Shown piece after piece: positions 4,340-50,759 of a DNA stretch of 64,000 nt. Each line of letters opens with the position of its first letter. The stretch's first letter is position 1. The notes under the pieces were generated by a model. That model worked only from the letters and a program-made list of their open reading frames with translations. It did not search any database and was not told the origin of the DNA. This DNA comes from Branchiostoma lanceolatum. Lineage: Eukaryota; Chordata; Leptocardii; Amphioxiformes; Branchiostomatidae. The position numbers and the translations under genes were made by a program. Location of the stretch: contig NC_089726.1 of the NCBI RefSeq assembly GCF_035083965.1, forward strand, positions 12,963,501 through 13,027,500, given 5' to 3'.

Positions 4340-5444
4340 GTAAGATGATTTTCTCCTTTTTCTGTGCATATATATCATCTTAGAACGTACGTTGTACGTT
4401 GTTTACACTTACGGCAATGTAATATGTATTTTGTCCGTCTGGAGTGGTGTTGTATCACGCAAGAAGACCGTTCTATATTTCTCCTTTCGTCGACATGGCG
4501 GTCTCCTCGTGGAGAAATTGGAGATATATGATACCAGCTATGAGACTCAGACTTAAGATGCTTACGATATTCCAGTGCCTCTTCTTGCGTTGAAAGAAAG
4601 GGAACAGTGTATTTGCACTTTATTGATATTAAACAAGCCTACGATTAGGCACAGGGCCGTTCATATGGAAAAAAAAACACGTTTAATAGAGCGCAATCGG
4701 CCATTTGTCTAACATATCTAGAGACATTTCCATCTACTAGACAAGCAATGTAGCGATTATAAAGGAAGACATATTTGTGTAACTCATTTCTCAGAAAACG
4801 TTACTTGTCTCCTTCCCCGCGTCTCGATGAGTTCCTCAGAACTGATTAAATCAGACGAAAACGTTGAAGATTGCCACTCTGGGTTTGGACCACGACACAA
4901 GTCACTTGTTCAATTGATTCCAGATTACACCCCTGTGAACATGATGCCAGGACCCAGTGAGTGGTCGTTATACAACGTGGTGTTGTTGATTTGGCAGTAC
5001 AAATGAAAGTTGCTACACGACAAACTTGATTTGCATTCACGGTGTGCACTGACAGTTCAAATGTAACCGGTCTTTTGAACAGATTGATGACAAAAAGAAG
5101 ATGACCTGCTGACGCGATTCATGATGAAGCGATGTGCCTGAAATCCTGTAGCGGCGGTCTTTTCTATTTGAAAATGCAGCTGAAAGTCTAGCAAGTCCAT
5201 TTCCCTCATATATAACGTTAGTTAGTGAGTCTAAAGTTTAGTTTTTCTTCGGTACCCTTCACAAACTCGGATGAACTTTTATGTAATATGTGTCGCTTAT
5301 TGAGGCAACCGACTAGTGCATGCTTTATGGTAGCTGGAGATTTTTAATCAGGTGTAGGAAAACTGTAGACTACCATGACCAGGACACACGCTGTCCAGCA
5401 TTGGCACAACCTCTTTTTGTTATGTCTCCATAGACTTGGCAAGG

Positions 5445-8400
5445 ATGAAGTTGGCGGCGTTCCTTCTGCTTACAGCCTCCTTGATCACGGGCAGTCGGAG
5501 CCAAAAATGTCTCTGCCCAGACAAGAGCGGGGACGAGGCCGGGGGAGTGTACAGCATTCCCGCTGGGCAGATCGTGTGTGTCGCCCCGAAGGCCTACACG
5601 ACTCCAGCCGGTGAACAGGAGACGGCGGAGGTGGCGCAGCTGCGGGAGGAGGTCAGGTCCCAGGCGGAGGAGATTGCCAGGTTGGAGGGCGAGAGGTCGA
5701 CAATGCAGAAGATTCTGCTGAACTATAGCACATCAGCGATCACCTTGCTCAACCGCTTCGACAGTATGGCTGAGGTAAGCCAAACGGTACTATACATTCT
5801 TACAAACGAATCTTTTCATAATGAAGCTGTTAACTGATGAATCAAGATTTTTCCAATTGCATGTACTCTACGGAAACTTCTTGATGTATACAGCTGAAAT
5901 GTGCTGTGGCAAACGATGGGTTATAAAGTCAGAATCAGGTGTTCTCCTGTACTTAGGTGATAGCTCGCCAGGCGGCGCGCATGGAGACGTTGGAGAAGCA
6001 GCTGCAGGAGAAGTGTAACCCTGGGGTGATCGCCTCCCCCACTGAGGAGGGAGAAGAGTCCAACCAACTTCAGGCGAAACCTAAACCCAGATCACGGCCT
6101 CCTCCAGATGCCATTGCCCAAACTCGAAATAAAGGTTGGTATTGTTCCTTTAAAAGGGCCCATTCGCGTATACAAGTTTGTATTTGAATGACTAGATTGC
6201 TAGCACGTTGAATAGAAGAGAAAACATAAAAGGAAAAGTCATATGAAATGATTAAAACGTTATATCATCAAACGTCTGGTCATCTATCTAACATCCATTT
6301 TTTTCCATCCCGCCCACGTCCAGACTGTTTACAAGTGTATAAGAGCGGCCGCAGAAAGTCGGGACCGTACATTATCAACCCTCCGGGGGAAACCACACAG
6401 ACGATGGTGTGGTGTGATCAGGAGACGGAGGGCGGCGGGTGGACTGTCGTGCAGAGGAGGTTTGTACACAACCAAGTGTTTTATTAACACCAACGTTTCG
6501 ATGACAATTTGTCACCTTCCCCAGGGCAATTCTGACTGGTTCAGTTTGCACTGCAGCTAACGTTAGGCGTCGTTGCTCATAGATGTGGTCGCCCTGAGGA
6601 AGGTGACAGACGGTCGCGAAGGTTGGTGTGAATAAAACACTTGATTGGTTGTGTATAAAGAGTTTCGTTATTAGGAGGTGGGCATATGGTAGATATGCTA
6701 TAGATAGAGAGACCAATTGGTAGACCGAATATCAGTTGGATAGTTTATTTGTCTGGTAGATGGTTGGATGCCCTTCAGCTGATTGGTTGTCAGTTTGTTT
6801 ATTTTCTTGTGTTTGTTTCTTCGTGGTCATGTTGGTGAGTTAGTTGATCGATCAATTTGTTTGTTTCTTATTCTATGTCCCTGCACGGACAAAACATTGA
6901 TTACCTGGTAAAAAAATATCCTGTTTTGTGCAGGTTGAACGGAGAGGTGAACTTTAACCGGAACTGGACGGAGTACGTGCAGGGGTTTGGGTACGTCGAC
7001 ACGGAGTTCTGGCTGGGTCTGAAGCACCTTCACTCCTTCACCACAGCTAACAGGTAATCTTTATCCGGATAGTCGCACTCATGATCAAGTAGTTTACTTC
7101 ATAGTTGCCTTGTTCGAATAAGATGTGCCAACACCCTTGAGTATGAATAACTTGTGAAATGGTCATCAACGTGTCCATCACAAGTATAAAGATATAGAAT
7201 TATTTTTGATTCAGTACAAAGAAGCATTGGTTCACTTGCTTTAGTAGTCTCTTCCTGACAATTCAACTGTACAATATATCAATACATTCAATAGCTAGAT
7301 CAATTCAAACACGGTGGATTTGTAGTCGCATAAAAAAGAAACCTGACAACAACAAAAACTTTTAACAGGTATGCGTTACGGATCGAACTATACGACTGGG
7401 ACGACAACATGGCGTACGCCGAGTACAGCTCGTTCAAGGTCGGCTCCGACATGCAGAGGTACAAACTACAGGTGGAAGGGTACAAGGGCACTGTCGGTGA
7501 CGTCATTTCCGGCGACAGGTTGGTGCCGCCATTTTGTCTCGCTAAATAATGCAAATAAACTACTTTTGACACTTGTTTCATGATCTAATGGCGTTTACCT
7601 CTGCGAGCAATTACCCCGTTGTCCTGAGTGAGATCATCACGTCAATATTGCTTTGAGCTTACGACGAAAACCTTTCTCTCTGGATCTACATTAACAGAAT
7701 TATCAGTACATTAGAGAATAGCATTTCCCCTGTGACGTGGTGGTTATCCAATTAAAGGAAAGTGAACGATATATTGTACGATCGTTTCTGCCAATGTGTT
7801 GGCATATGTTACACAGGCCTATATAATCATCTGTGTGTTACTAAAAGACCTCTCATCTTAAGATTTTTTGCTGCTTTTTGTACGCCCGAGTAGATATAAC
7901 AGTAGTTGACAGTCACTCCCTAGAGTAAGGCAAGTCTACTGGTGCAAGTTAAAGTCATTTTGTTGAGGTGCTTTCCTTGCGAGCTTCCCTTTGCCCCGGC
8001 AGCAGCTATTCTTTCAGTTTCAACTCTTCAGACGCCATTGTGAGTCAGCTGCCGCGAGGCATGGCAACAACTGTATGTCAAAGATTGTCGGTGCTTAATC
8101 AGTTTTAATCGTAAACGATTAATTTTTCAATTGGAGACATTACAGAGTACCTTGGCTGTCATTCCATTGCGCGAAGTAGTCGGATCATTAATTTGAATTT
8201 ATCCGGATTATTCTCATGAATTTATCCGGAGTATTGCTCTGATTTATAGATACAACAGTAACAACCAGCCGTTCAGCACCAGGAACTACGACAACGCGGC
8301 GAGCTGCGCCAACTACCGGGGCGGGGGCTGGTGGTTTAACCAGATGTGCGGATACTCCAACCTCAATGGCATCTACTACGAAAGGTAAAGGCCACGGCGA

Positions 8401-12221: not shown

Positions 12222-12885
12222 TTAAGAGCAAATGTCTGTAAGGATCAAACAATGGTGGCAGGGGTCAAAATATCGATTCGGCTCATATTTTGCACAGTGA
12301 TAGTACTTGGCCCACTATCCCTCAAAATAGCTTTCTTTTTGCTCAACACCGATTGTTGCCATGGCAACGGGCCAAACAAGTTTTGGGGCCATTTTCACTG
12401 ATTTGGGTATGTCAAAAACATGAAAATTGGCTCAATTTAGGACATGATTACGAGCAGATGCTTGAATTTAACGGGAAAACAAAAACTGGGCTAACAAGAG
12501 CAACTATTCAGCTTTATAAGAATAGCTTTGAAGTTTTCAGAAATTCAAGTTGAAGTGCTTGGGCAACCTCAAAACAATACAGTGTTTGTGGCTTGTGAAA
12601 AAAGGTAATTTTGTCCCAACTTTGAAACGCTGTAAGTCCAAAAGTGGTGTTTTGTTTTGCTTCAAATTTACATCATATATACATCCAAGTTGTAGCTACC
12701 ATGTATCTGTTTTCAAATTTTGGTATCTTTTTTGGTTGTCACGTAACTGTCCTCAGAAGTAGGTCATTTTTTAGGTTTGACGAAAAATATGATATTTGGC
12801 CATATTTCAAGCCCAATATATGGCAAAGAAAAGAAGTGATCTGGTTTAAATTCATGTCAAAGGTAACCCTATGCGTGTTCTATCA

Positions 12886-13735
12886 AATGAATGGTTACAA
12901 AGGTTGGTGTCTTGTATCGTTGCTGTGTACTTGTCCCTAAAAGTAGGCCATATTTTCGACATATGCGGAAATCAACATTTTTGGCTAACTTTGAAGCCCT
13001 GAAGATGTCAAAGTAGGATGTTTTTTCGATTCAATCTTTAATCAGAGGTACCCCTATGTAATGCCTATCAAATGAATGGTTGCAAAGGTTGGTGTCTTGT
13101 ATCGTTGCCGTGTACTTGTCCCTAAAAGTAGACCATATTTTTGGCATGTGTGGAAATTGATATTTTGGGCTATGTTTGAAGCTCTGAAAATGTCAAAGTG
13201 GGATGTTTTTTTCAACTCAATCTTTTTCAGAAGTATCAGAAGTACCCCTGTGTATTGTCTTTCAAATGAATGGTTTCAAAGGTTGGTGTCTTGTTTTGTT
13301 GCCATGGACTTGTCCCTAAAAGTAGGCCATATTTTGGGCATGTGTGGAAATTGATATTTTGGGCTATGATTGAAGCTCTGAAGATGTCAAAGTGGGATGT
13401 TTTTTCAATTAAATCTTTTATCAGAAGTACCCCTGTGTATTGTCTACCAAATGAATGCCTGCAAAGGTTGGTGTCTTGTTTTGTTGCCGTGTACTTGTCC
13501 CTAAAAGTAGGCCATATTTTCGACATATGCGTAAATCAACATTTTTGGCTAACTTTGAAGCCCTGAAGATGTCAAAGTAGGATGTTTTTTTTTTCAATTC
13601 AATCTTTTATCAAATGTACCCCTGTGTATTGTCCATCAAATGAATGCCTGCAAATGTTGGTGTCTTGTTTCGTTGCTGTGTACTTGTCCCTAAAAGTAGG
13701 TCATATTTTCGACATATTTGGAAATTAACATGCAG
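12886..13735 (+). repeat. ~187-bp tandem unit, left arm of foldback
   Basis: The marker AGGTTGGTGTCTTG (one copy ATGTTGGTGTCTTG) recurs at about 12900, 13086, 13280, 13465 and 13654, spacing 185-194 bp. Each unit contains TGTACTTGTCCCTAAAAGTA, GATGTCAAAGT(A/G)GGATG, and GTACCCCTGTGTATTG-like blocks. The units differ by about 10 percent by eye. Confidence 0.85.
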
Positions 13736-14221
13736 TAATTTCTAAACCCAAGTTCTTGGAGAAGTTATACTATGTATTGTCTTTCAAAAAGTATTACCTA
13801 AGAGTTTTACTGATTTTACCCCATACCTACTAGAGTATAGCGGATCTCCCCTTATCATCGTGCCCTAGGCTGAGAAACTTGAGAACTCCAGTATGTAGGT
13901 CAGAAGAGGCGAAGTTTGGTTCTGTCTGTCTGTGCTCGTAAGAGACACAACATGTAACGTTGATGCAGTGAATTTTACTAACCATTACAAAATTCGACAG
14001 TGAAAAATATTTATCATTTCTCTCCTAGTGAGGATCACATAAGTATTTTACCCAGCTCGCAGAGTGTAGTGGATCTTCCCTCATCTTTGTGTGCAGAGGG
14101 AGAAACTTGTAACAAAAACATGCTACTGCATTAAAAGATATGGACATTGTTTACACATTCAAGGAATATATATATATGTGTGTACATATATATGTTTTGA
14201 TTTTGCTTCCTTTGAATCGCT

Positions 14222-15425
14222 TATTTCCGAAATATGACCTAAATGTGCGTTCAGGGACAAGTACACTGCAACGAGACAATATACCAACCTTTTGAAACTA
14301 TTCATATGATAGACAATACACAGGGGTACTTCTGGTGATGGAATTGAAAACATATCTTATTTTGACAGGGCTACAAAGTTAGCCAAAAAGTGCTAGTTTC
14401 TGTATATATGCCAAGTATGGCCTACTCTAAGGGACAATTCTACGACAACAAAACATAACACCAACCTTTGCAGGCATTAATTTTATAGAAAATACACAGG
14501 GGTACTTCTGATAAAGGATTGAATTGAAAAAAAAAACATCCTACTTTGACATTATAGAGCTTCAAACATAGCCCAAAATATCAATTTCCACACATGCCCA
14601 AAAGATGGCCTCCTTTTAAGGACAAGTACACTACAACGAAGCAAGACACCAACCTTTGCAACCATTCATTTGATAGACAATACACAGGGGTACTTCTGAT
14701 AAAAGATTGAATTGAAAAAAACATCCTACTTTGACATCTTCAGGGCTTCAAAGTTAGCCAAAAATGTTGATTTACGCATATGTCGAAAATATGGCCTACT
14801 TTTAGGGACAAGTACACGGCAACAAAACAAGACACCAACCTTTGCAGGCATTCATTTGGTAGACAATACACAGGGGTACTTCTGATAAAAGATTTAATTG
14901 AAAAAAACATCCCACTTTGACATCTTCAGAGCTTCAATCATAGCCCAAAATATCAATTTCCACACATGCCCAAAATATGGCCTACTTTTAGGGACAAGTC
15001 CATGGCAACAAAACAAGACACCAACCTTTGAAACCATTCATTTGAAAGACAATACACAGGGGTACTTCTGATACTTCTGAAAAAGATTGAGTTGAAAAAA
15101 ACATCCCACTTTGACATTTTCAGAGCTTCAAACATAGCCCAAAATATCAATTTCCACACATGCCAAAAATATGGTCTACTTTTAGGGACAAGTACACGGC
15201 AACGATACAAGACACCAACCTTTGCAACCATTCATTTGATAGGCAATACATAGGGGTACCTCTGATTAAAGATTGAATCGAAAAAACATCCTACTTTGAC
15301 ATCTTCAGGGCTTCAAAGTTAGCCAAAAATGTTGATTTCCGCATATGTCGAAAATATGGCCTACTTTTAGGGACAAGTACACAGCAACGATACAAGACAC
15401 CAACCTTTGCAACCATTCATTTGAT
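14222..15425 (-). repeat. ~187-bp tandem unit, right arm of foldback
   Basis: The same unit in reverse orientation. The marker CACCAACCTTTG recurs near 14282, 14461, 14650, 14836, 15022, 15212 and 15402, so this arm has two more units than the left arm. An (AT)n/(TG)n tract at 14165-14193 lies just inside its inner end. Confidence 0.85.
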
Positions 15426-16085
15426 AGAACGCGCATAGGGTTACCTTTGACATGAATTTAAACCAGATCACTTCTTTTCTTTGCCATATATTGGGCTTGA
15501 AATATGGCCAAATATCATATTTTTCGTCAAACCTAAAAAATGACCTACTTCTGAGGACAGTTACGTGACAACCAAAAAAGATACCAAAATTTGAAAACAG
15601 ATACATGGTAGCTACAACTTGGATGTATATATGATGTAAATTTGAAGCAAAACAAAACACCACTTTTGGACTTACAGCGTTTCAAAGTTGGGACAAAATT
15701 ACCTTTTTTCACAAGCCACAAACACTGTATTGTTTTGAGGTTGCCCAAGCACTTCAACTTGAATTTCTGAAAACTTCAAAGCTATTCTTATAAAGCTGAA
15801 TAGTTGCTCTTGTTAGCCCAGTTTTTGTTTTCCCGTTAAATTCAAGCATCTGCTCGTAATCATGTCCTAAATTGAGCCAATTTTCATGTTTTTGACATAC
15901 CCAAATCAGGGAAAATGGCCCCAAAACTTGTTTGGCCCGTTGCCATGGCAACAATCGGTGATGAGCAAAAAGAAAGCTATTTTGAGGGATAGTGGGCCAA
16001 GTACTATCACTGTGCAAAATATGAGCCGAATCGATTTTTTGACCCCTGCCACCATTGTTTGATCCTTACAGACATTTGCTCTTAA

Positions 16086-21700: not shown

Positions 21701-23585
21701 ATTATTTACCCACCATAGCTGAATTATTCAGCTGTTTCTGTGTATGAGCATAGACATGGGGCAAACTTTGCCTGACGCCTCTTCCTTACTTCCAAAATAG
21801 TTTATATAAACTATGGAAACACGTCAGAGGTGATACAAACCTGTGAAAAGCATTTCTGACGAAAAAAAGATTCGCTTTTACCAGTGTGATTTATGCCCCC
21901 GAAGGACCGTGTATGGTCAGGAATTATCACCACTTCTGATCCTTCTTATCTAGATAGTTACGAATCCCCCATTTATACTTTATCTGCCATCTCTGTGTGG
22001 ACGGATACCTTCAAACACCGCCACCAGCCGATAATGATAATGCATTTTCTTACCAAGAGGCATTTGTAGTAATGTTGTTTCTTGGAGCTTTCATGTCTAT
22101 CTGACGTTTAGATACCCTGGAGCCACAACAGTGCGTGAGTTCCATATTGCTTTTGCTTGATGACCTGTTGAAGCGTTTCCCGGTTGGTTTGGAGTACTCA
22201 GGCTTGGATTCCGCATGGAATCACCCACCTCTCTGATGATTGCTGTCTCCCCGTACGCAGTGCACAAGATCATTCATCATGTTTATTTGCAAAAAACTGA
22301 CGTTATAACTTTCTGAAGATTAATGAGCCGTGACAAAAATGACAGATGCCGCGGTTTCATCCCTATAGCCTGGCTTAACGGTGGGATTCCATGTCTTCCA
22401 CCTTGAACAGTTATTAAATGTATTTCTAATTATTTTGTCATCAGCTAGTGGAAGGTTTCCACCTGGGAACTCCACAGCACGGCTTTAGTGGAATCCCCGG
22501 TAAAGCCCTGCTGTACTGTACTTGTACAGTCAGGTCACGTCTGCGGCACATTTATATGATTATCTCCCCGGTGAAGCACACTTCTGTTACACTTCATACC
22601 GCTAATGGTAAGAAAGAGTACATCTATCCTCACTTACTGGGTATTCAAGCACTCATCCAGTTTATCACCGCTAACTAGGTTCCTCCAATCCCATTTGGCA
22701 CTTGATTCACTAGAAGCTTACGAACTACGGAACGTTTTGAACGTAAGACGTCTCTATTGTACAGCAGACGGTTCCCAGGTGCAACACCCATTGGCATGTG
22801 AGCAAGCGTCTTTCAGAGACTATTATTTTTCAGTGTGTTAATGTTAGCATCTTCACTGTCAACGACGCATTCATAACTGTTTGGCAGCTGTAGTGTGGTG
22901 CCTTTACGCCTTGTCGAGGTGAAAATCCTTCTAAAGATTTAGAAATGTTCAATGTCATATCAATATCAACCATTCAGATATACGACATATGAAGCAGGTT
23001 TCCTTGAAACAAAACGAACTGCAAAGGGTTGACATTTTGCTTGATATTGTGGAGAGCTATATGTACATGAGTGAGTGATTATGTTTGTCTTATGTATACT
23101 ACTGAATGTCAGAATGAGTTTAATCAAAGCTTTTATTAGTACCATTCCTTTGTGGTTCGCTGTCATGTCTAATGGTTAACATGTGGCCAAGAAATATCAA
23201 TATTACAGTACGTCATTAAGGTATGAGACAAAGACAAAGTCTCGACTACCAGTGCCCTTTCGTCAGTAAAACAATTCTTGACATCATTGTATAAAACAGA
23301 ATGTAGTTAAATCATCACTACAATGTTTTACCAGTTTGTAGTATTGCAGATTCGTTCTTTTCTTTAAATCTGTGATGACTGTTAAATTCTTTATATGTTT
23401 TGCGCCTTTAGTATACAGTAAATGTTGTGTGTGGGTTAATTATTTTGTTAACAATGGGTACGTGGAAAATATTACTATTTCGGTTAATGATCATAAGTAG
23501 TTTAGTACATAGCGCAAATATCGTGCTTGTTGAATTGGAGGTCATGTTATCTTTGGGCAAGTACGTTACTGGCAGATCACGCCGG
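18787..23585. other. Intergenic; no gene recognised
   Basis: Mostly unique AT-rich sequence of almost 5 kb. A fragment of the dispersed repeat family lies at about 20110-20460. Open frames of 60-92 residues are present on both strands but none combines a start, splice signals and recognisable motifs. Distal exons or regulatory DNA could lie here unseen. Confidence 0.45.
20110..20460 (+). repeat. Fragment of the octamer repeat family
   Basis: Contains GCTAGGGGGCCCAAAGTC and, further on, CCCACATGCCAGATATCA followed by AATCCATCCAG, the same order of blocks as the ends of the repeats at 411-1113 and 3048-3939. The remainder has diverged. Confidence 0.5.
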
Positions 23586-24676
23586 TCAGTCGTCGATGTT
23601 CCCGCTGATCTCGGTACACTTCTCTGGGCAGTAGAGATAGCGATAGGGCTTCGTCTTCTTGTCTTTAGTGGCGGGGGTGTGTAACTTGCCAGAGGTAGGA
23701 GGCCCAGCCGGGAGATGCGGTGCCGGAGGCTGGATAGGGCGCCCAGCCGGTAGCTGGTGTCCGAAAGGTTGGGTAGGGCGTCTAGCCGGTTTGGCCGGGT
23801 AGTTCAGTGCCGGGGGTTGGACAGGATGCACGGTCGGGTACTTCGGTGCCGGGGGTTGGGCGGGACGCCTGGCCGGGTGGTTCGGTGCCGAGGGTTGGGC
23901 GGGATGCCTGGCCGGGTGTTTCGCTGCCGGTGGTTGGATAGAATCCCATGGCCAGAACGGGAAGTTCGATACCGCAGGTTTGTTTACCCTTTCGATGTTC
24001 CTAAATGATAAAGAACAAAAAAGACAAAAAAAGAAACGTGAACAGTAGTTCTGATAAAACCAGCTGCCTCACAACTGAATATGTATGCTGTGGTCTAGTA
24101 CTTAGCTGTTCCGCTTCTGGACCAAGAGTTCAGAGCTCGAATCCCGACTTAAATGTTGAAACTGAAAGGATTGCAGTCTTACGGAACGTACGTTCAGCCG
24201 TCTCCCGGTGTTAAAGGAGAGTTATGCTCAGGTTAAAGATCGAACCATACACATTAATCAAAGCAATCAATGGGAGTATCCGTAAAGGTGGCAATTATGA
24301 TCATATAGTTTGAAATGGTGTTCTTAGAGTAAGATATAAAGATCTTGCCCTAAAAATAAGTGTACTAAAATAGAAAAAAAAAGCAGTGCTGTCATGTGAC
24401 ACAATACATGGTTTTACGTCAATCATGAAATAGATAAAACATTAAAAGTACGTAGGATTCGACGACTTGGTGGTTTTCTTTTATAGGGCTGTACCTAATA
24501 CATTTTGTAAACGCTGACTTTATTCAGATGACATACCTGGATGTTTTGGCATTGGCTCCGCTGTTGTTTGGGACCGTTACCTTTTTGTTGGCAGCTTTGT
24601 CGGAAGAGAAAAACCAGGCATCCGAGTTGACACCAAAAACGATGGCAACGCCAGCAAGGAGCAGGAGTGGACGCAT
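23586..24676 (-). CDS. Secreted proline-rich 13-residue repeat protein
   Basis: Two coding exons: 24676-24537 and 24000-23586, giving 184 residues and ending in TGA. The donor is CAG|GTATGT, the acceptor TTTAG|G, and the phase (2 then 1 base) matches exactly. The ATG has G at -3. Residues 1-17 (MRPLLLLAGVAIVFGVN) form a clear signal peptide. A short linker with Lys and Asn follows, then residues 70-150 are six tandem units of the pattern PPAPxxPARRPxQ, mostly 13 residues (the fourth is 16). The C terminus is KDKKTKPYRYLYCPEKCTE and an acidic end; the only two cysteines are C171 and C175. It is Pro/Ala/Arg rich and basic. I do not recognise the family. It could be a matrix, mucus or cuticle protein, or a proline-rich antimicrobial-type precursor; these are inferences only. 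Confidence 0.75.
24085..24245 (+). mobile_element. Possible tRNA-like SINE fragment
   Basis: GTGGTCTAGTACTTAGCTG resembles an A box and GAGCTCGAATCCCGAC a B box, about 40 bases apart, as in a tRNA-derived head. It lies in the intron of the proline-rich gene in the opposite orientation. There is no second copy in this window to support it. Confidence 0.35.
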
Positions 24677-24693
24677 GGCTAGAGATTTCTTTC

Positions 24694-25779
24694 ACTGTTT
24701 AGAGAAAGAGAATAAGTATTGTGTTTAACAGACTGGTTAGGATTGTGTCAACAAAACACCATACCTTCCTCTGTTGGTGATCAAACAGATTTATTTCGTA
24801 CCAAGTCTAATATAGATGCCGGAAAATGGCGTACTCGTGAGGGAGGGCGATAGATAACAGACAGCTTTATTTATTGGCACAGATTTGTTCGAATCTGGGG
24901 TCCCCTTATTTGTCCCCTTGACGTTGTGCCATTGGGAAAGGTACTTTACTCGACTTTCCACACTTCACTCGGGTGAAAATGAGTACCTAGCTTCGGTTAG
25001 GGACGTCCCTCGGATAGTACGTTAAATAGAACTCGTGTTCGAGGAGAACCACACCTCGAGCACATAAAAGAACCCACCACATTTATCGAAAAGAGTAAGA
25101 GTCCTTTCCTGTGTCGGTGGATCAAATAAATCTGCCCGGATATGCAGCTTGTACTCTTCAGTACAAACCTGATGTGTTACGCCATGAGGCGGTTTACCGT
25201 GTATGCAATACGAACAAAATAAAACACAAGGCAGCAATATTGGCTATACAGGGTACTCTTTGTGACTTCAAGTGGCAATAATTATGTTCCTGATCAAACT
25301 GAAAGAAACTTTGCATAGCCGGTAAAGTGTTTACTTTGTTGTACTAGGTACTAGGGCGCAGTCAACTTTGTCGCATGATTTTAGCCAGCCTAAGGCCATG
25401 AAAGAAGTGACCGTCGAGAAGACCCTTTACCGTTTCAAGCCAGCTGCATCTTGTAGGACACATTCACAATATTCCATAAATGGTCGCAATTTGCCGTCGT
25501 AAACCAAACCTATCGTACAACGAATGCAACAGGGTAATTATCTACAATGTGAGTAATGATTTTTTTCACGAGTTTTCTAACACCACTATATACTACTTCA
25601 TGTACAGATAGAGTATAAATATTTTTGTAGTGATGGAAAAATAACTTGTCTTCAATATCAAGGTAAATACTATTTCGGCATTACAACAACCTACTAGAAG
25701 ATCAAATGATCACTACGGACTTTAGAAATACAGTGTAAAGAAAAAAAACTCTGGAGGAATCAGATAAGACTTATCTTAC
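24694..25779 (-). other. Intron in the 5' UTR of the proline-rich gene
   Basis: Bounded upstream by GCG|GTAAGA at 25779 and downstream by TCTCTAAACAG|TGAAAG at 24694, just 18 bases before the ATG. It contains a SINE at about 24888-25075. The pairing of these two sites is inferred from their strength and spacing. Confidence 0.5.
24888..25075 (+). mobile_element. SINE fragment related to the copy at 41869
   Basis: The B-box GTTCGAATCTGG at about 24888 is followed by ACGTTGTGCCATTGGGAAAGG, CACTTCACTCGGGTG and GAGTACCTAGCTTCGGTTAG, all of which align with the body of the SINE at 41869-42090. The 5' half of the tRNA-like head is missing. Confidence 0.65.
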
Positions 25780-25850
25780 CGCAAAGTTTCCCGCTAGACA
25801 CAGAATTCGTGTTCTGCACTTCGTCTCCGATACAACATATGCTTCTGTGA
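25780..25850 (-). other. Noncoding first exon of the proline-rich gene (predicted)
   Basis: Starts about 30 bases downstream of a TATA box and ends at the strong donor GTAAGA. No ATG in a useful frame. Predicted from promoter spacing and donor only. Confidence 0.5.
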
Positions 25851-25870
25851 ACTTTTCTCTGTCGTGATCC

Positions 25871-25880
25871 TCCTTTTATA
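25871..25880 (-). promoter_or_regulatory. TATA box of the proline-rich secreted protein gene
   Basis: Minus-strand TATAAAAGGA, a near-ideal TATA element. A donor lies about 90 bases downstream and the protein-coding exon follows the next good acceptor. A strong TATA box suggests tissue-specific or high-level expression, which fits a secreted product. Confidence 0.6.
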
Positions 25881-25899
25881 CAGTCTTCAAGCAACTTTC

Positions 25900-28800
25900 C
25901 CGTGAGAAAGGATGTGTAGCTTATGATAACATTTCATAAGAAATCGCATTACATGAGTGGGCACAATGGTTGATCTGAATTTTGTTCTGAGTTACAACTA
26001 TTACATTTTCTTGTTATAATCCTTCATAAATCATAGAGATTCATGTCTACTAGACCACACAAAGGCTGAGGCGACATCAAAGTCTTTAAGGTTGAAGTTT
26101 AAGTCGCAGTCATGTGTGGATTATAACCAATCACTGACAGCAATGACATTGACATTCTTCTACTTGTAGCTAAGCTATAGGTCGAGTTCATTGAGTTAAG
26201 GATCTTTATTGCAACCTCCTTGATGAAATGTTTCTATTCATGCTGATCACGTGACGGTTCTCTTTCGTCACTAATAACTGCCACAGGGGAGGTCGAGCAA
26301 AAAAAAAGGGCTCCCACAATGCATTGTGTGTGTGTGGATATAACCCCCTGTGCTCTGTATAAAGAACCGCCAAACTGCTTCGTCATATCTTTTTCATTCT
26401 GTCTGTTTCCTCCTGAATCTCACGATTTAGTACTGTGCAATCATTTCTCTAAACAACTGTCCATAATGAACTTAAGGAACAATGGCGTCATTTGAAACGG
26501 TAGAAGAAAACTATGCAGTAAAGCAAAATATAAGATGAAATAAGTTCCACGTCTGTAAAGAAAGAAACCAAACAAATTTTTATTGATTTTCCAAATAGTC
26601 AGGACACGTCTTGTAAGTAGATTACTGTATTACCTTGTATGCCAAACGTCCTTCACTGCACTAATATTGCACAAACCTATAAGATAGATCAGAGCGTCGC
26701 CGTGGTTTAATCCCAGCCGAAGGACATGCATGAGGAAGCGGCTCTACTGGGAATTTCTGGAAATACGTCTTCCTGCGGTTAGATCTCCTGATGTGTAACG
26801 GTTTATCGCCGTCTGGTGAATACTTTGATAAGCCGGCTTTATCCTTGGCTATCCATCACACAGCTTATTTTCTTTCCGTTCGACTGAATTTGGATTTTAA
26901 CCTTACGAAACTGCTGCGTTTCACGTGGCGACGGAGGCTTATTGTCCACAGTGCGGCTCGGAGATAATTGCAGCACTAGGCATCGCGCTGTTAAGATAAA
27001 TATAGGCGATTTTTTCTGTGCGCAAGTTTGTGTATTCCTTGCCCCGGTATTATTCTACTATAAACACATGCGCATATGCGCTTTGCCAAGAATGCCGACC
27101 CTTCTCTGTCCCATACCGGTACCACATAATGAAGTCAAGGACAACCGCTTCAGAATTCCATTTAACCGATGGGAAAAGAAGTTGGCGAATATACTGAGGT
27201 GTAATATGACTTTCGGCACTTCTTAAGGCTAGTACTTAGCCAAAGTTATGGATGAATGAAGCCAAACCACATGACGGGGGTTTCAATTTGCGCTTGGCGG
27301 TACTCAGGCCGATACGTCTCTATCCCTCAAACCACGACATCCCCAAACCTGTCATGTTTCTGTCGATAATCAGTCATCCGACCGTAATGACATGGTCTCA
27401 TTCTGTCAAGTACTCACAACTTCTCTCCAAGCTTATATTCGCCTGTTAGGTCACGCCCTAGATGTGTATATTAAGCTTCAGGCTTGCCTTTGTGGTTCGA
27501 CCCGTCGTATATCACTGTGAATTGTTGGACGTTTTTACAGCGTGCTAATGCTAATAGAATAGGGACGGACGGGCATATTGTAATGCGTGTCTCAACATCT
27601 TGTTGCCTGGAAAAAAATCTTATGATTACGTTGGCAGCCGTGGAAATATTGAAATGAGATCTTTGAATAACTCTCATATACACCTTTGTTTATAGCGATG
27701 ATAACACTAAACCCTAGTAAAATATGTCTTTCTTGGCAGGTTAATCCATGTCTATAATGTATTGACTTTTAGGCATTAGATGATTTAGCCGCTTTACTGT
27801 ATTTGTTTTGCAGGATGAAATACGGATGTCATCAAATTGCTTGAAGCCTTCGGCTGACTGTAAAGTTGATTAGCAATTTGTCATTTGATTTGTGAAACTA
27901 GATAACTATTTCTAGGAGTGGAGACTTTCGCCATGACTAAAATAAAACCTATTTGAACAGATTGTAAGTAAGTATGGTACGTGCTGCTATGCCGTCAAAT
28001 TCAATAATAGTTTTCCTCTGGGGGCTGGCTTTGAAAATTGGAACATTTTTATCAGTCTAGGTCAGTATTGACGCATTGACATGCAGCCCATGTGTACAAC
28101 TTTTGTTTTAAATGGGTCAGACGAATCGTGACAATAACGCAAATTGAATAGTGGAAAGAATGGACACTTAATGGTCGCACAAGGGTATAGAATTGGGCCC
28201 GCCAACTTTTTTCCATTAGGAGGTCGTAACTTTCTGGCCTGATTGAAAAACAAGGGAACTGAATCACTGCACGTGGCCGAAGTAGGTCAAAGGAAACGAT
28301 AAAATAAGTGAGTACTTTGTGTTTCCGGATTAACCTGATTTGAATCTCATATCGGGCAGGGCTGACTGTGTTAACGACCGTATAAAGGACGGTATCTCTG
28401 CCCTATAAACCTCGCCTGCAATCTCATGACGTCACTGTAGCGGGAGGTTGATGTAATGATCGACTGGGTCAAAGCGCCGGTTCAATTTTCAGAAAATCTC
28501 GTCTGAGTCGAAAAGGAAAGTACCCCTCAAAACAACTAGCAGGTCTCATACAATACCCCTATCTCATTTTGATCCGATCATCTATGCAAACAAACAAACA
28601 AACAAACAAACAAACAAACAAACAGACAGACCGACAGACAGACAGGCAGACAGGCAGGCAGGCAGGCAGACAGACAGACAGACAAAAAACAACATAGACA
28701 TAGCGATGACTAAGAAAGATGCTAAGGTGCTTAAACCAATGATTTTAAACTTCCTTGCTTAAATTAGCACAAAGCGCCGTAACAATTTAGGATGTTACAA

Positions 28801-30350
28801 ACTAAGCTATTTCAGTCCTCGTTGAAGATTCTAATGAGTACTATTCAAATTCAGGGATATTAAGTGCTCAGTACGTGTCAAGAAAATACATGGGTGCGGC
28901 AGTCATGAAAAAATGCTGTTCTCATGGCTGATATAAAGATAATATCTCAGTGGTGTGTGTGATACATTTGGTATTACAGTGTTACCGCGATGAAATATGA
29001 GATAATGGTACACTGAGCTTTGAAGTAAGCCTGAACCTTCATTGGAATGAATGTGCAATGAAACTACTTTTTGCGTAGTCGTTGAATTTCTCATATCTCA
29101 TATCATATCTTACAAAGGCCGCCATTTCTCCATTATGGTTTCTTATCTCTTCTTGGGAACCTTCCGTGGTTGATTGAATTATGTCTGAGTGCCTCTCCAC
29201 TGCTCTCACGGGACAGCGCATTGTGACAAGATGATGGACCGTCACAGGTCGTTTCCTTCAAAGTGCAACAGACAATTTTCTTTATGATATACCTCCTTGT
29301 CACTAGGGCGGCGACCGCACTGCGACCGCTGTGAGACCTAAGATTGGCCAGTCTCCCGTAGATCTCCATATAAGATTTGCTGATATTTGAATTTTTCGAT
29401 GAACAAGCGCTCATCAATGATCGCCGGAGCGTTTCCGCAAGAACAACTTTTTAGGCGCTCGTTGTTGTGGTTGTATTCCTTTTAGATACCATTTTAGTTT
29501 TCCAGAGCACGTAAATACCAGTATGTACATGTGGACCCTGCAGGCGTACGTGTAATGTTACATGATATGCAGTGGTCTGCTCTAAACGAGCGGGAATAGC
29601 GCGCCGAAACAATCAATAAAGCAACTAGTCACTCAGCAGACAAATGGTCACGCTTCAGGCGATTCTAGTTCTGTATTCAAACAAGTCAATCTTACATGCA
29701 CAGTTACAAGAGCGTCGATTGTTTCGCGTATTTTTTACCCTTTTGCGGTTGATAACATCAATGCATGATGGCTGTGAATCTAGCCCCTCCTAAAGAAAAG
29801 CATGCATGTGCAGCCGTCCCCTTTTGGATAGGCGCCGGGATACGTTAGTGAAAACGCCGTACTCTAGGCTCCCTAATTCACTTCTGCCAGAACACATTTT
29901 GCTATAGAGGCTTGGGAAAAGGCATATTGAAAGCTTATAAGCAGAAGATTCTACGGAATCCTTTACCGTGAATTCCAATGAACCTGTGCATGAACCGTGG
30001 ACTGTAAATATGAATCAGAACGCGTGAAAAAGACGCTATCATACATATTGCCCTATATACCAGCACGATTAGAAATATCACGGCTGCGGGCGGACAGCAA
30101 GCATTGCTAACGATATTTGCGGACAGATTTGATGCGCCGGGACTCATTATCGACGCCGCATTGAAGGCTCCCAGCGGAGTTACGCCTGATCAGCGTGCTC
30201 AATCACATTCATATGGTTTGAACTGAGCAACTTTGGCAGTTGCGTCACATGACTCCGCCGGTGCACCCAATGCGAACTGAAAGTCTCTCATAACAGGTCG
30301 GAGCTTGAGCGGAGTGCACAACTCAGAGCACCGTGTGGTTCTCCTGCACC
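25900..30350. other. Intergenic; no gene recognised
   Basis: Unique AT-rich sequence between the proline-rich gene and the channel gene, with one compound microsatellite at 28574-28685. Open frames up to 94 residues have no supporting motif. It may hold regulatory DNA for the intronless channel gene. Confidence 0.45.
28574..28685. repeat. Compound (CAAA)n(CAGA/CAGG)n microsatellite
   Basis: About 12 CAAA tetramers, then CAGA and CAGG tetramers, ending in AAAAAAC. The change from CAAA to CAGA to CAGG suggests successive point mutation and expansion. Confidence 0.9.
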
Positions 30351-31823
30351 ATGGACGGCGCTGCAGAAGCATCTTGCTCTGTACAGCATCCTGCCATACA
30401 GCCTGAACATTTTACCGCGACGAGGATGAAGTTTGTGCGGAAAGACGACAGGGTAAAGCTTCAAGTGGGCGGAACGCTGTTTGTGACGTCCCGTAAAATC
30501 TTTGACCGTTTCCCGGACAGTCTGCTCGGAAGCGATGAGAAAGACTACTTCTACAACGCGGAGACCGACGAGTACGTGTTCGACCGGGACCCGGATATAT
30601 TCAGGTACATCCTGACGTACTACCGCACCGGCCATCTACACTACCCCGAGAACGAGTCCGTCAAGGACTACGACAACGAGCTCATCTTTTTTCGCCTCAT
30701 GGCCGAGGATATCGTCGGAGTGTGTTGTCGGGAAACGTACATGGAGAAAAAGGAAGCCCTAGAGCAAATCGAGTCTGAAACGGCAGCGGGTGCAGATGAC
30801 AAGGACGCGTCAGCGATCTCCACACTCCGCGCGAGACTGTGGAGCATTCTGGACGACCCGCTGTCGGGAGCAGTCGCTCAGGCATCGTTTTACGTGACAG
30901 GAACCATGATCGTCGCCTCCATCGTAGCGAACGTTGTGGAGACAATTTGGTGCCGCAACTTTGGCGGGCAGGACGAATGGCTGCGGTGCGGGGACAGGTA
31001 CAGAGTCACCTTCTCTGTCGTGGAAATAACCTGCGTCACGTATTTTACAATCGAGTATTCCCTGCGACTGTTCGCAGCGCCAAACAGACGAGAGTTTGTG
31101 AAGAGTCCTTTGAGCGTGATCGACCTGGTGTCAATTGTACCGTTCTATATCGCTTTATGCATCCCTGAGAACAAGGAGCTGAACGGTGTGTTTGTGACCC
31201 TCCGCGTGTTCCGCGTGTTCCGCATTTTCAAACTGTCGCGCTCGTCCTCCGGCATGCAGATGCTGGGACAGACGCTGAAGGCGTGCATGCGCGACCTGGG
31301 CTTCCTGCTCTTCGCGCTGGCCATGACCGTGGTCATCTTCGCCACCATGATGTACTACTGTGAGCGGGGCCGGCCCGAGTCCAACTTCACCAGCATCCCC
31401 GCCGGCTTCTGGTACATCGTGGTCACCATGACGACGCTCGGGTACGGCGACATGGTGCCCAACACCATCGTGGGCATGCTGGTGACGGCGTTCTGCTGCC
31501 TCAGCAGCGTGGTCCTCCTCACGCTGCCCGTCACCGTCATCGTCTCCAACTTCAACGCCATCTACCGCCCGGAGAAAGTCTCCAAAGGCGACAAGGCCCT
31601 GCTGACGGGCGGGGTGGAGAGCCCGGAGAGAGAGCGGTTCCAGAGCCAACACCAACACCTTATAGACTGCCTGAGGAACACTGCCAGACCCGGGTTTTAC
31701 CTGACGCGACTCCACCAGGGCAGCCGGGACCTACATCGCTCGGACGCGTCCTCGTCAACGCCCGCCTCCTTCCAAGAACTCTCCGTAGAGACCATTCTCG
31801 ATTACGACGAAACACGTTGCTAA
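30351..31823 (+). CDS. Shal/Kv4-type voltage-gated potassium channel subunit, intronless
   Basis: One exon encoding 490 residues from the ATG at 30351 (context CACCATGG, a strong Kozak site); the GTG 18 bases upstream is not a plausible eukaryotic start. T1 tetramerisation domain about 34-130 (VGGTLFVTS, FDRFPDSLLG, FDRDPDIFRYILTYYRTG). S1 starts near 179, S2 near 220, S3 near 254, S4 at 284-297 with R285, R288, R291, K294 and R297. The selectivity filter TLGYGD is at 363-368, and S6 ends VTVIVSNFNAIY. S3-S5 and the S4 GVFVTLRVFRVFRIFK match Shal channels best. It lacks the hydrophobic N terminus that binds KChIP in vertebrate Kv4. In S6 the PVP gate motif is PVT (393-395) and in T1 the zinc-site Cys is S103. 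Channel pore looks intact; gating is probably altered. A retrocopy origin is possible. Confidence 0.92.
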   Translation: MDGAAEASCSVQHPAIQPEHFTATRMKFVRKDDRVKLQVGGTLFVTSRKIFDRFPDSLLGSDEKDYFYNAETDEYVFDRDPDIFRYILTYYRTGHLHYPENESVKDYDNELIFFRLMAEDIVGVCCRETYMEKKEALEQIESETAAGADDKDASAISTLRARLWSILDDPLSGAVAQASFYVTGTMIVASIVANVVETIWCRNFGGQDEWLRCGDRYRVTFSVVEITCVTYFTIEYSLRLFAAPNRREFVKSPLSVIDLVSIVPFYIALCIPENKELNGVFVTLRVFRVFRIFKLSRSSSGMQMLGQTLKACMRDLGFLLFALAMTVVIFATMMYYCERGRPESNFTSIPAGFWYIVVTMTTLGYGDMVPNTIVGMLVTAFCCLSSVVLLTLPVTVIVSNFNAIYRPEKVSKGDKALLTGGVESPERERFQSQHQHLIDCLRNTARPGFYLTRLHQGSRDLHRSDASSSTPASFQELSVETILDYDETRC

Positions 31824-44733: not shown

Positions 44734-47700
44734 ATGATGTCATTTGGGCATGAAGATTCTACCGGTGGTACAAGTGTTGGACAGAAGCTCGAGAAGACAG
44801 AGAAAGGACAAGGTAAGACGTATTTCACAGTTTACGTGCGCTAATCACACACGACAAGAGGCACAAAATTATGTGATCAAGGCAGTGTCTGACATTTGTA
44901 TGCTCAGTGAAAGTAGAGAGAACGCAAACAGAGATGGCAGACTTTATACCCCATACGTAAACTGCATTGTGATCCTTCTAGTGTCATAGAAAGAATAGCA
45001 GCACTGAGGTTGTATGGGAACACTTCATCCTGGTTCGCATGTTAGGAATTGTAGAAAAACAACTTCACTCCCCTGGGGCCCTTGGGCCTGGCCTCGGGTT
45101 GAAGTATTGTAAATAGGACTATGGTCCACATTGTTTACGTACCGATGATGCGGTGTTGTCATAAGTGAAGTGAAATGCTGTTGTTTTGAACACGGTGTAA
45201 TGTACGTGTAGTACGTTTGAGTGCTGCTTGAAAGCATTGACCCAAAAGCTGACCTCACCGTCCGTGTTCCATTTTCAGTAGAGCTGTACGCGGCCCCAGC
45301 TGTCCGCACGCCGTCTGTACAGCAGCTGTCCCGGGCAGCAGCCAAGCTGAACCTCCAGTTGGATGACGAGGAACTAAAGCAGTTCAGAGGTGTGTAAGAG
45401 CAACACAAATCAATTTATGACACGGTATATTTAGTAGTATAATACAGAAAAGAAGCAACGTATTTTCGATGTTTGCATTTGCTCTTGCTTCCGTTATTTC
45501 CGTGTACGACATTTTGGTCCCATGATCTTCAAATAAAGTCAAGTCTTTCAATCGAATTACATGCGTGAAGGCAAAGGAATGCATCATATGACGGATACTG
45601 CAAAAACAAAGTTTGCATATCATCTATAAGCAATACTGATGATTCAATAGATAATGTCATAAGAAATAGTACGCATAAGTCTAACCGACACAGTAAGCTA
45701 GATGGTATTATAACATCAATAGAAGTGCCAGTACCTTTTATGGAAGTTCTCACAGCTCATGAATATCTTGCTCCCCGTGAACGTGACTTTCAGATGTAAT
45801 GAAGGGCACGGTGACGTCTTACCAGCGGGCGGACCAGCTAGTGGAACCGCTGCCTCCCGTCAAGTGGCCGAGGACGCCCGGCTGGCGGCCGGAACCTAGG
45901 GATAACCCGCACAATGCATGGTGAGTCTGAGATGAAATTTCCTTCATCAGTGGTCAACTTCAACAAGTTGTAGCTAATTTGCAGTTTTTAGCTTTTCGAC
46001 TCTCCCATTCACCTTCAAATGTCTATATTCGACCATATTGAACTTGACAAGTATTCCACCGGAAAAGAAGTCACTTATAAGTCGGTACGGTTCCGTCATG
46101 TACATATTTTGTCCTTCCCACCACCAAGGTACTGGCGGACAGAGATCACGGGTGCTCCTTCAGGCAAGCTGCATGGGAAGACCGTGGCCATCAAGGACAA
46201 CGTGGCCGTGGCGGGAGTGCCCATGATGTGCGGCAGTAGGGTTTTGGAGGGATATGTCCCCGAGTATGACGCCACCATCATAACAAGGATCTTAGATGCA
46301 GGTTTTGAAGTCATTCATTACTCCATTTAAGAAACTTTCTTTTTAATCTAACATACAAATGTTAACAACTGGATCTGAAGAAAACTGAATCTGCGACGTG
46401 TGTTTATGACAATATACGATTGGCAAAATTCAATGATGTCCAATTCAGTCATTCTTAGTATAATGAGATGACTTTCCTTCGAACGCGATACAAGTACATT
46501 GTACTTGTAGGTATAGTAATACCGGTTTCATAACTCTTGCTGTTCCGCCAGGTGGCGTTATTAAAGGTAAAGCGGTGTGTGAGGACATGTGCAAGTCTCC
46601 CAGCAGCTACACCGCAGCTACAGGTCCTGTAGAGAACGCTCACGTGACCGGCCGTTCGTCTGGGGGCTCCAGTAGTGGAAGTGCAGCTTTGGTATGTGTT
46701 TCTTGTTCTACTACTACTACTAAATGTAAGTTAACGAATGTTTTATGCCATGAGCGTTCTGAATTCTTTTTCCCACCGAAGATGCTTGGAAGAATTCAAC
46801 ACGCCAAAACAAATGCCATATGTTTGTCGCCAAGGAGAACTGATCTCAGACGCTCCAGACTTAGAATACTACTTGCACCCCTTTCCCTTCATCTCGAACT
46901 ACGTATATACGTGCGCTAGTATATGACATAACATGGTCATAGACACATCACCCAGGTAAGCAACTTTTAATTTTATTTTTATGTTGTTTTCAGTCCTGCT
47001 TACATTTCTGCTCATTCTTACACGATGTATTCTTACATGCACATCGCCCAGCTTGCTCTAGGGGAGGTAGACCTAGCCATAGGCGGGGACCAGGGCGGGT
47101 CCATCCGGATTCCTGCCGCCTGGTCCGGGGTGGTGGGACTGAAGCCGACCTACGGGCTGGTACCCTACACGGGATGTGTCTCTGCGGAAACCACACTTGA
47201 CCACGTCGGGCCGATGGCCAGGACTGTGGAGGACGTTGCAATGATGCTAGAGGTTAGCTAGCACTAACCCTTTTAAGATTTGGTTTAGATGTTTATTACC
47301 ATGGTTCCGTTCAAATCGTCAACTCTTCTTTTCTTAACATTTCAGACAAGTATTGTGGCTTTAAGATCGCGTCTACTTGGGTCATTTTCCTCAGGTGCTG
47401 TCTGGGTACGATGACGGACTAGACCCCCGACAGGCCCCCAACATCTCTGGTCAGAACTACGTTAGTCAGGTGAGGGAATGACGTCACAAGACTACTTATC
47501 GTGTACGTACCGCAAGTGCAGTCTGCATTTTATATTTCGTCGCGTATAAGAGGTGTCACCGTACCTCCTTAAAGGACCCGGTAGACTTTGATGTTCTTTT
47601 GCTTCATAAGACGATGGTCACGGGACAGGTGAAGATTTGATCTTATTTATGCCGTAAGATGCTATATGCATTAGACGCACCGAGGCCCTATCATAAACTA

Positions 47701-49370
47701 AACTGAGATGTATGTTTCCTTCCAGTTGACGGGAGATATAAGCGGGATCAGGGTGGGGCTACTGAAGGAAGGGTTCGGACTGGTGACGTCAGAAGCTGAC
47801 GTGGACGACTTAGTGCATGAGGCGGCTCACGAACTGACGTCAGCGGGCGCTACAGTAGAGGAAGTGTCCGTTCCCATGCACTGCGACGGTATGTTGTATG
47901 CTGTGTTATATAGCCTGGAATCCATCCTATTTAGCTTCCGGCCGCTACCCAAGCTGCTTGGGTAGCGGCCGGAAGCTAAATAGGATGGATTCCAGGCTAG
48001 TGTTATATGCTCTATTGTGTCCAATTTCAACTGTAAACAGTGTTGTCAGCGTAGGTCATTACGTAAGTAGCAGATGCAGAATAGTGAGGGTAATGAACTA
48101 TAAGAACATCATAGAAGCGTTTTTGCGTTCCTCAGGGTGCCACCTCTGGAACACAGTGGCCATTGAGGGTACGCTGCAGACCATGATTAAGGGACACGGT
48201 AAGACGCTTTTTACTCATCGACTTGCAATTCAATTCAACTAACGGTTTTGCTCTTTCACAGGCCGCTCAAATGCTTTTTATCCACAATGTCAGATCACTG
48301 AAAGTGGTTATTACATGTATGCGACGTAACCTCACGCATTACATCGTTTCAGGACTAGGAGTTGGATGGAAAGGTTTCTATCCAACAAGCATGCTGGAGG
48401 CTCTCGCGAGAGGTTTCAAGTCTCGCGCGAACGACACGTCCCACACTCTGAAGCTGCTAATGTTGTTTGGCGAGTACATGAGGGAGACTTATGGTGGGAG
48501 GTGAGTTGCTTGGAAGACAGGCCTGACCATAGCAGGAGAATTTAGTGTATCTTGTTCAGATACTAGGTAAACTTTGGCATGATAGCTTAAGTCATCCACG
48601 TGTGCGAATTATTTTGTACGCCTCTGACTGTAAACGAACACCAAGATCATGTTTAATTTTCAGGACAAAGAGCAAAATAGAACCTTGTAAGATAAAATGT
48701 TTGTGGGGTACACGCATGATGTTGTGCTTTAATAAGTTTGTATTTGCCGCAGGTATTATGCCAAAGGACAGAACCTGTCTCGCGTGTTGACGCATGCGTA
48801 CAACAACGCTCTCCAGAAGTATGACGTACTTGTTCTACCCACAGTTCCATTCAAGGCGACAGAGATTCCAAACCAGGACGTTTCTATCAAGGGTGACCAA
48901 AAACATTTTTTTCTTGTAGCACGTGCACGTGATTTTACTAGACATGCGATACTTCTCCATCAAATATGGTGTTGATGTGAGCTGAGAGTAACCCTCAAGT
49001 TACCTAAAAGAGACTCATAAAAAGATGAGTATAAGATCACTACCGACGTTACAGCTATCCACAGATTTGCATATTTCAAACTCGAAATACAATGTACATT
49101 GCTTCGTAGGAAAATAGTTTGTTTCTTCCAAACCGCGATATTTTTAGTAACTGTGCATCATTTTGTATTTCAGACTTCTGTCAGCCAGGAGGTAAAGTGG
49201 TAGCCAACACCTGTCCGTTCAACCTGACCGGACACCCTGCCATCAGCATCAATGCCGAGTTCTCACACGGCCTCCCGGTCGGCATGATGATCGTCGGACG
49301 CCATTTTGAGGACGCCACCGTACTCAGAGTGGCGCATGCGTACGAAAAGATTAGAGACAGCAGATCATGA
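44734..49370 (+). CDS. Amidase signature hydrolase A (bacterial aliphatic-amidase type)
   Basis: Twelve exons: 44734-44812 (predicted), 45279-45389, 45794-45920, 46129-46301, 46552-46691, 47052-47252, 47395-47469, 47726-47888, 48136-48198, 48353-48500, 48753-48892, 49174-49370; 538 residues. Exons 2-12 are secure by homology with genes B and C and by phase; exon 1 was chosen for its strong CAAG|GTAAGA donor in phase 1. Catalytic elements: K128 in [13 protein letters not shown], the signature GGSSSGSA at 201-208, and nucleophile S227 in [16 protein letters not shown]. The Lys-Ser distance of 99 equals that known for FAAH. C-terminal [19 protein letters not shown] is typical of nitrile-pathway amidases, which hydrolyse amides to acids and ammonia (EC 3.5.1.4-like). 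Natural substrate unknown. Neighbours B and C are paralogues in opposite orientation. Confidence 0.88.
47911..47999. mobile_element. Palindromic MITE in amidase A intron 8, TAG-family copy 4
   Basis: An 89-bp perfect or nearly perfect palindrome beginning TAGCCTGGAATCCATCC and ending with its complement, with almost no loop. It is bordered by the 8-bp repeat GTGTTATA (47903-47910 and 48000-48007). It begins only 22 bases after the exon-8 donor. Confidence 0.85.
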
Positions 49371-50759
49371 ATAGAATGTACCACAAGAATTCCAGTATAT
49401 CATTAGCAAAGCAAAATGTGAACATTCCATTAATATATCATATACAATCATGTTGATAATCGGGAGTTTTCAAATCGCCTTTGAAAAATACTTATCATCC
49501 AGGAGGCGGGTAGAGCAACATTCCGTGATGAACAACTTGATCAAGAACAATTTCTATGCCACGACGTCGGGCAGCAGCGTCCTATCCGGAGGGTTCAATT
49601 TTACGTGTTTTAAAGGTACAATCTCAGCGTACCGATCATGATTGACAGGGTTAGCAGTTGAAATAACACTTCACGCACTACATATGGTACATAATTCCTG
49701 ATTCATACCCCTTGGTAAGAGCAACACGCCTGCCAGTGAATAAATGGAAAAAAAAAAAAACAAGCAGGTGCATTGCATTTTTCTATGACATATTTTCTTT
49801 ATTGGTGACATGACCTATATATAGTTATATACGTATATACTCTGAATCTTCCGTCATATTTTCGTCTAAAAAGTTTATTCGTAATCCCAAGTCTATGTCG
49901 TCCTTGGACGCATAAAGATTTTGAAACGTTCACTTGACACGGGTGGGGCTCAATTTTACCTGGATAAGCTTGGATAACACTGGTTTAGATGATATTTTTC
50001 AATATTAAGAAAACGAAAGATAAAAGAAGCTAAAGCAGTTGTTGGTGAACTTTACTGTCCGACATAACATCGATCTACTAACAGACCTACTGCGACAGAC
50101 CTACTGGCTTCCATCTGGTCATCTGTCATTACAGCAGCCCAGGAGACAGAATATTATCACCTGGACAGAACAGGTTCGAGCCTCCCAGGCGCCAACAAGA
50201 CTCCTTCTGGTCACCATGTTTATCATCACCTTTGTCTCCGTAGGCATCACTGCGTCGAAGCATTCTATCAGGAAACTTGAATGACATACTTGGAAGACGA
50301 ACACAGATATCGAGCTACCAATCGATAACTATGAGCGCTGTGACTAAACGATTTAACTTATCGTCTATCATTGTTATAGAGCCACTGTGTGATACACTGT
50401 ATTTTGCAATGGTGTACAGTTACCTGTTCAGTGTGAGACTTTATACATATAGTGATGACTTGAGTAATGAGGCAGCAGGTAAAACAGGTGTTCATTTTAA
50501 AGGTCAATATCAAACTCATGACTGAACTCACGGTTCTTCTTATTGAAGGGCTAACGTTATATAGACTATACATAAATGTAGACACCTCTTGTGTATGTGT
50601 GTTTTTAGGTCCCAGCATTGTGTTTAACGTTTTACTTAACATAAGATGATTCAAAAACTTGAAAGACTAAGTTGACAGATAGTAGGCATACGCGTTTATA
50701 GGATGTCATATATGAGGCCTATTTGCCCATTTGCACATTATCAAGTATGTGGAACAAAT
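49371..50759. other. Between convergent amidases A and B; no gene recognised
   Basis: The 1.4-kb shared 3' spacer. An exon-like segment lies at 49502-49614 (acceptor TCATCCAG, donor AAAG|GTACAA), and another open stretch at 50140-50284 includes a hydrophobic LLLVTMFIITFVSVG. Their phases do not join directly, so no gene is called. Confidence 0.4.

Follow-up and report, generated by a model that had tools for sequence, protein, structure and literature searches.

On the minus strand of the window, by which we mean the whole 64,000-nucleotide stretch of DNA analyzed, positions 25880 to 23586 form a three-exon gene model whose in-frame join encodes 184 amino acids without an internal stop. The gene is real-looking, possibly unannotated and of an ordinary kind. 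Its product falls in the descriptive class of secreted proline-rich tandem repeat proteins, having both an N-terminal signal, judged by hydropathy, and tandem proline-rich units, and it has no detectable family. Our analysis shows the gene structure, the coding-like codon choice of exon 3, the repeat, the composition of the protein and the lack of a match to known domains. The reading that we prefer, though we hold it as a close call, is that of a genuine animal gene, split into three exons, whose small secreted product would bind polyanions in mucus or matrix through a disordered, cationic repeat rod. If expressed, the gene would enlarge the set of small secreted proteins of its lineage by one that is possibly unannotated, and would provide a clean test case for the mucus, matrix or defense roles of proline-rich repeat proteins; it changes no general picture.

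Gene structure and sequence signals

All elements of the gene lie on the minus strand. A TATA box in the context TATAAAAGGA is found as a sequence motif at 25874..25880, with an initiator-like element 32 nt past it, and the predicted noncoding exon 1 (25780..25848), whose start we place at the initiator-like TTCACA, ends at the donor GCG/GTAAGA. Exon 2 (24537..24694) consists of 18 nt of 5′ untranslated region (UTR) and, from the ATG at 24676, 46 codons and 2 bases; the signal-peptide-like segment MRPLLLLAGVAIVFGVNSDA occupies 24617..24676, as delimited by hydropathy and a predicted cleavage site. The sequence then gives a phase 2, GT–AG coding intron (24001..24536) with the donor CAG/GTATGT after 24537 and the acceptor TTTAG/GAA ahead of 24000. 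Exon 3 (23586..24000), supported by splice rank and a codon-choice test, contains the remaining coding sequence and the stop codon TGA ending at 23586. A candidate poly(A) signal, the bare motif AATAAA at 23132..23137, is located 448 nt past the stop, and other candidate motifs of this type are ATTAAA at 23124 and TATAAA at 23395. A complete upstream ORF of 14 codons, with its ATG at 25838, lies inside the predicted 5′ UTR exon 25780–25848, ahead of the main ATG.

The original prediction had these positions exactly right, including those of the TATA box, the donor at 25780, the boundaries at 24694, 24537 and 24000, and the stop at 23586. It described one phase-perfect intron: the coding join is indeed in phase, but the implied introns number two when the one within the 5′ UTR (donor after 25780, acceptor before 24694) is counted. 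Its remark that ORF listings break up the gene agrees with the list of ORFs with start codons, which gives pieces of 81 and 50 amino acids, and in the stop-to-stop list exon 3 is intact within a frame of 160 amino acids. Its proposal of a TATA promoter and of a secreted protein built of proline-rich repeats is supported by the hydropathy core, the tandem proline-rich units and the TATA box, and the claimed signal peptide corresponds to a signal-like N terminus with a best 10-residue hydropathy of 3.13.

The individual signals differ in what they contribute. Splice sites were scored with generic consensus frequencies and ranked among the 4,135 GT and 3,585 AG sites of the minus strand; by this measure all four sites of the gene are among the top 1% of candidates, the donors of exons 1 and 2 ranking 32nd and 7th and the acceptors of exons 2 and 3 ranking 19th and 17th. 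Open reading for 46 codons together with a hydropathy core of at least 2.4 was found for 14 of the 2,609 ATGs on the two strands of the window. The pairing of TATA box and initiator lends only mild support: a BBCABW initiator stands 28 to 33 nt downstream of 3 of the 29 TATAWAR motifs on the minus strand, that of the gene included, but on the plus strand 4 of 31 are also paired at the same spacing. The openness of exon 3 is by itself weak evidence, since the frame stayed open in 40 of 2,000 dinucleotide shuffles (at least one of the six frames was open in 178 of 2,000). The case for the gene is carried by the splice-site ranks and the codon choice.

Codon choice and the possibility of a chance reading frame

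The synonymous-codon model was trained on 1,122 codons from a neighboring Kv-channel ORF and 11 conserved amidase blocks. In the frame of the gene, exon 3 scored +0.059 per codon and was the sole positive frame of six, the five others scoring from −0.06 to −0.21. None of the 1,647 control frame scores outside the masked gene regions reached that of exon 3 (control maximum 0.038), nor did any of the 90 controls from stretches with a GC content of at least 0.5; the control stretches overlap and may contain unknown exons. Models trained on one half of the data each gave positive scores for exon 3, 0.038 with the Kv channel only and 0.033 with the amidases only, both inside the range of held-out coding sequence (−0.08 to +0.09). 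The signal is driven by the repeat, whose units are not independent for codon scoring: the repeat part scored +0.113 and the nonrepeat part −0.021, the latter about two SDs above the GC-rich controls (mean −0.107, SD 0.045, n = 90).

These numbers bear on a very unlikely alternative, that of an unexpressed minisatellite, rich in GC, that is open by accident next to chance splice-like motifs. Short tandem repeats tend to stay open, as the shuffles above illustrate, and two further observations fit such an origin. With the three extra residues of unit 4 removed from the count, the pN/pS ratio between units came to 0.75 in the frame of the gene vs. 0.69 in one antisense frame, a comparison that does not demonstrate purifying selection on the protein, and the codon score of exon 2 does not favor the gene, its frame (−6.0 nats) scoring below one sense frame and two antisense ones. 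The codon-choice test on exon 3 argues against a chance origin, however, as do several features that are independent of the repeat, namely the four high-ranking splice sites, the signal-like start in the correct exon and phase, and the spacing of TATA box and initiator. Third positions vary most among the six units, with 73 pairwise differences vs. 52 and 51 at the other two, and the sole length change between units is 9 bases, a multiple of three.

The repeat itself is not due to chance. Tandem Repeats Finder (TRF) gave a score of 208 for 23792–23937, and a probe made from the repeat DNA, allowing at most three mismatches, found five copies in the window, all within the array, and none in 100 shuffles. 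The array probably grew through in-register duplication of units.

A cationic proline-rich protein and its possible roles

Tandem-repeat detection and unit alignment place the repeat domain of 81 residues at 23694..23936. It comprises six units of 13 residues that abut directly, with unit 4 extended to 16 by a 3-residue insert and unit 5 degenerate. The original prediction had the number of units right, but none of them fits its pattern PPAPxxPARRPxQ exactly. Likewise, the composition that it called basic and Arg/Pro is basic and proline-rich, with a predicted pI of 10.2 from residue 21 onward, but lysines (14) outnumber arginines (10); the 184 residues further include 35 Pro, 23 Ala, 5 Tyr and 2 Cys. 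It correctly noted that the only two cysteines are those of CPEKC (23616..23630), near the C terminus. Proline makes up 34 of the roughly 164 residues after the signal peptide (20.7%, residue 21 onward) and 27 of the 81 in the repeat domain (33.3%), which also has six Arg, three Lys and six His, no Asp or Glu, and a charge of +9. Counted by eye, only 9 of the 81 repeat residues are V, I, L, F or Y. The single N-glycosylation sequon, at residue 37, is outside the repeat, and nothing mucin-like is present, which counts against the preferred reading.

No relatives were found in the collections searched. At generous thresholds, the 184-residue protein gave no match in Pfam, NCBIfam or the sequences of PDB chains, with Pfam detecting neither a collagen nor a chitin-binding domain nor any other. 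A tblastn search of the 64-kb window for paralogues returned the gene itself, with all remaining matches at E values of 1.6 or worse, and no further copies of 23400–26500 were present in the window at an E value of 1e-3. Pattern searches with the exon 3 protein gave 117 stretches in prokaryote genomes and 19 in a viral collection, none of them confirmed, as expected of nonanimal collections; a scan for bacterial promoters and terminators, irrelevant for an animal gene, was empty. Among the literature matches listed, no title or abstract opening described the protein, which is no proof of absence.

The low number of hydrophobic-core residues, together with the lack of excision sites and acidic spacers, makes an intact, disordered cationic rod the best reading. 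The center of the protein would be a repeat rod that is intrinsically disordered, prone to form polyproline II and positively charged, and the secreted protein would stay whole rather than be cut into units. Judging from composition, the repeats may act as a multivalent polycation on polyanions such as mucin glycans, matrix polysaccharide and possibly the surfaces of bacteria. The CPEKC near the C terminus may form a small loop or link chains. Polyanion binding in mucus or matrix is thus what the composition suggests, and the protein probably belongs among the ordinary constituents of mucus or matrix. The vertebrate salivary basic proline-rich proteins (PRB family) have a signal peptide and tandem basic proline-rich repeats and are secreted without folded domains. 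Our protein resembles them in its signal-like start, its tandem basic proline-rich repeats without folded domains and its predicted secretion, a likeness for which we claim no homology, but it differs in the sequence and length of the repeat, with Ala-rich units of 13 residues containing Gln and His, and in the C-terminal CPEKC.

A structural or adhesive matrix protein, of cuticle, tube, notochord sheath or similar, in which Tyr, Lys or the two Cys would form cross-links, has a modest chance of being the better description. The proline-rich tandem repeats with Lys and Tyr, the signal-like start and the pair of cysteines are consistent with it, but the protein is small, has just 5 Tyr and 2 Cys among its 184 residues, and contains none of the collagen, chitin-binding or other domains known from Pfam.

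We consider it possible but doubtful that the protein is a proline-rich antimicrobial that would act as a whole long domain, entering or coating bacteria, rather than through excised short peptides. The criteria given for proline-rich antimicrobial peptides (PrAMPs) include a proline content of at least 25% and a net charge of at least +1, together with antimicrobial activity and an intracellular target, DnaK or the 70S ribosome, and the PRP motif is not regarded as essential (PMC11678341). Such a role is possible because the repeat domain agrees with these two published composition values, at 33% proline and a net charge of +9 (six Arg, three Lys, no Asp or Glu), and the signal-like start is in keeping with it. 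On the other hand, the proline content from residue 21 onward is below that threshold, the repeat domain has no PRP motif, the patterns used detected no kappa-B site in the 1.1 kb upstream, and Pfam and NCBIfam had no matching family. In the long invertebrate PrAMPs arasin-1 (PMC11678341) and SpHyastatin (PMC4954822), as in our protein, a cationic region rich in proline precedes a tail that contains Cys; unlike them, our protein has only two cysteines, in a CX3C arrangement, no PRP and tandem units of 13 residues. BjAMP1 of the amphioxus Branchiostoma japonicum is likewise made as a small precursor that is secreted and in part cationic, but it is 97 amino acids long and contains an anionic region as well as an RR site for cleavage (PMC4683396), and the word "proline" does not occur in the main text of that paper. 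It seems unlikely that the gene represents a new antimicrobial family, one of long secreted proteins with Pro/Ala/Arg repeats that are not cleaved into unit peptides; such a family would belong to an invertebrate deuterostome if the original prediction is right in pointing to amphioxus.

More improbable than any of these is a precursor cut into unit peptides in the manner of apidaecins, the multi-peptide organization to which the original prediction had pointed. Proprotein convertases disfavor a proline right after a dibasic site. Of the four dibasic sites in the protein, the two in the repeat (RR in units 2 and 4) are each followed by proline, and the units adjoin directly with no acidic spacers between them; that suggestion is therefore not supported, even though such a precursor would likewise have similar units in tandem behind a signal-like start. 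Apidaecin-type pre-pro-polyproteins also have a leader at the N terminus and, after it, proline-rich units in tandem, which are most commonly separated by a motif like RREAEPEAEP (PMC11549390), and the hymenoptaecin units of ants are flanked by EAEP and RR (PMC3415428). By comparison with the apidaecin polyproteins so described, our protein lacks the RREAEPEAEP-like spacers that signal processing, the PRPPHPRL-like C terminus of the units and any acidic residue in the repeat (PMC11549390).

Other features of the window

Several further features were observed in the window. An ORF on the plus strand at 5379–5837 opens with a signal-peptide-like sequence and contains the segment CLCPDKSG and, by eye, a coiled-coil-like stretch; it gave no Pfam match at 0.001. 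At 1117–2730, the 10-mer CAAAAGTTTA is repeated about 160 times in an array with long open stretches in all three plus frames, which encode one repeat of the type KVYKSLQKFT, as a 10-base period would give. A long inverted repeat at 12222–16085, with 1.5-kb arms 98.2% identical and containing arrays of 185- to 186-base units, looks like a fold-back element or a recent inverted duplication.

An amidase gene is present three times at 45280–60831, once on the plus and twice on the minus strand, and the aligned blocks of the copies are about 73 to 91% identical. The Pfam Amidase family matches ORF pieces of the first two copies; three pieces of the third have no Pfam match at 0.001, and its blocks align with those of the other copies. 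The ORF for a voltage-gated potassium channel at 30309–31823 on the plus strand is apparently intronless across the channel core, and its nearest solved relatives are Kv4 channels (KCND2, E value 1.5e-131). The potassium channel RNA editing signal RF00485 of Rfam was described from Kv1-type channels. Within this ORF, 31437–31550 matches that signal with 56.8 bits, at a gathering threshold of 51.
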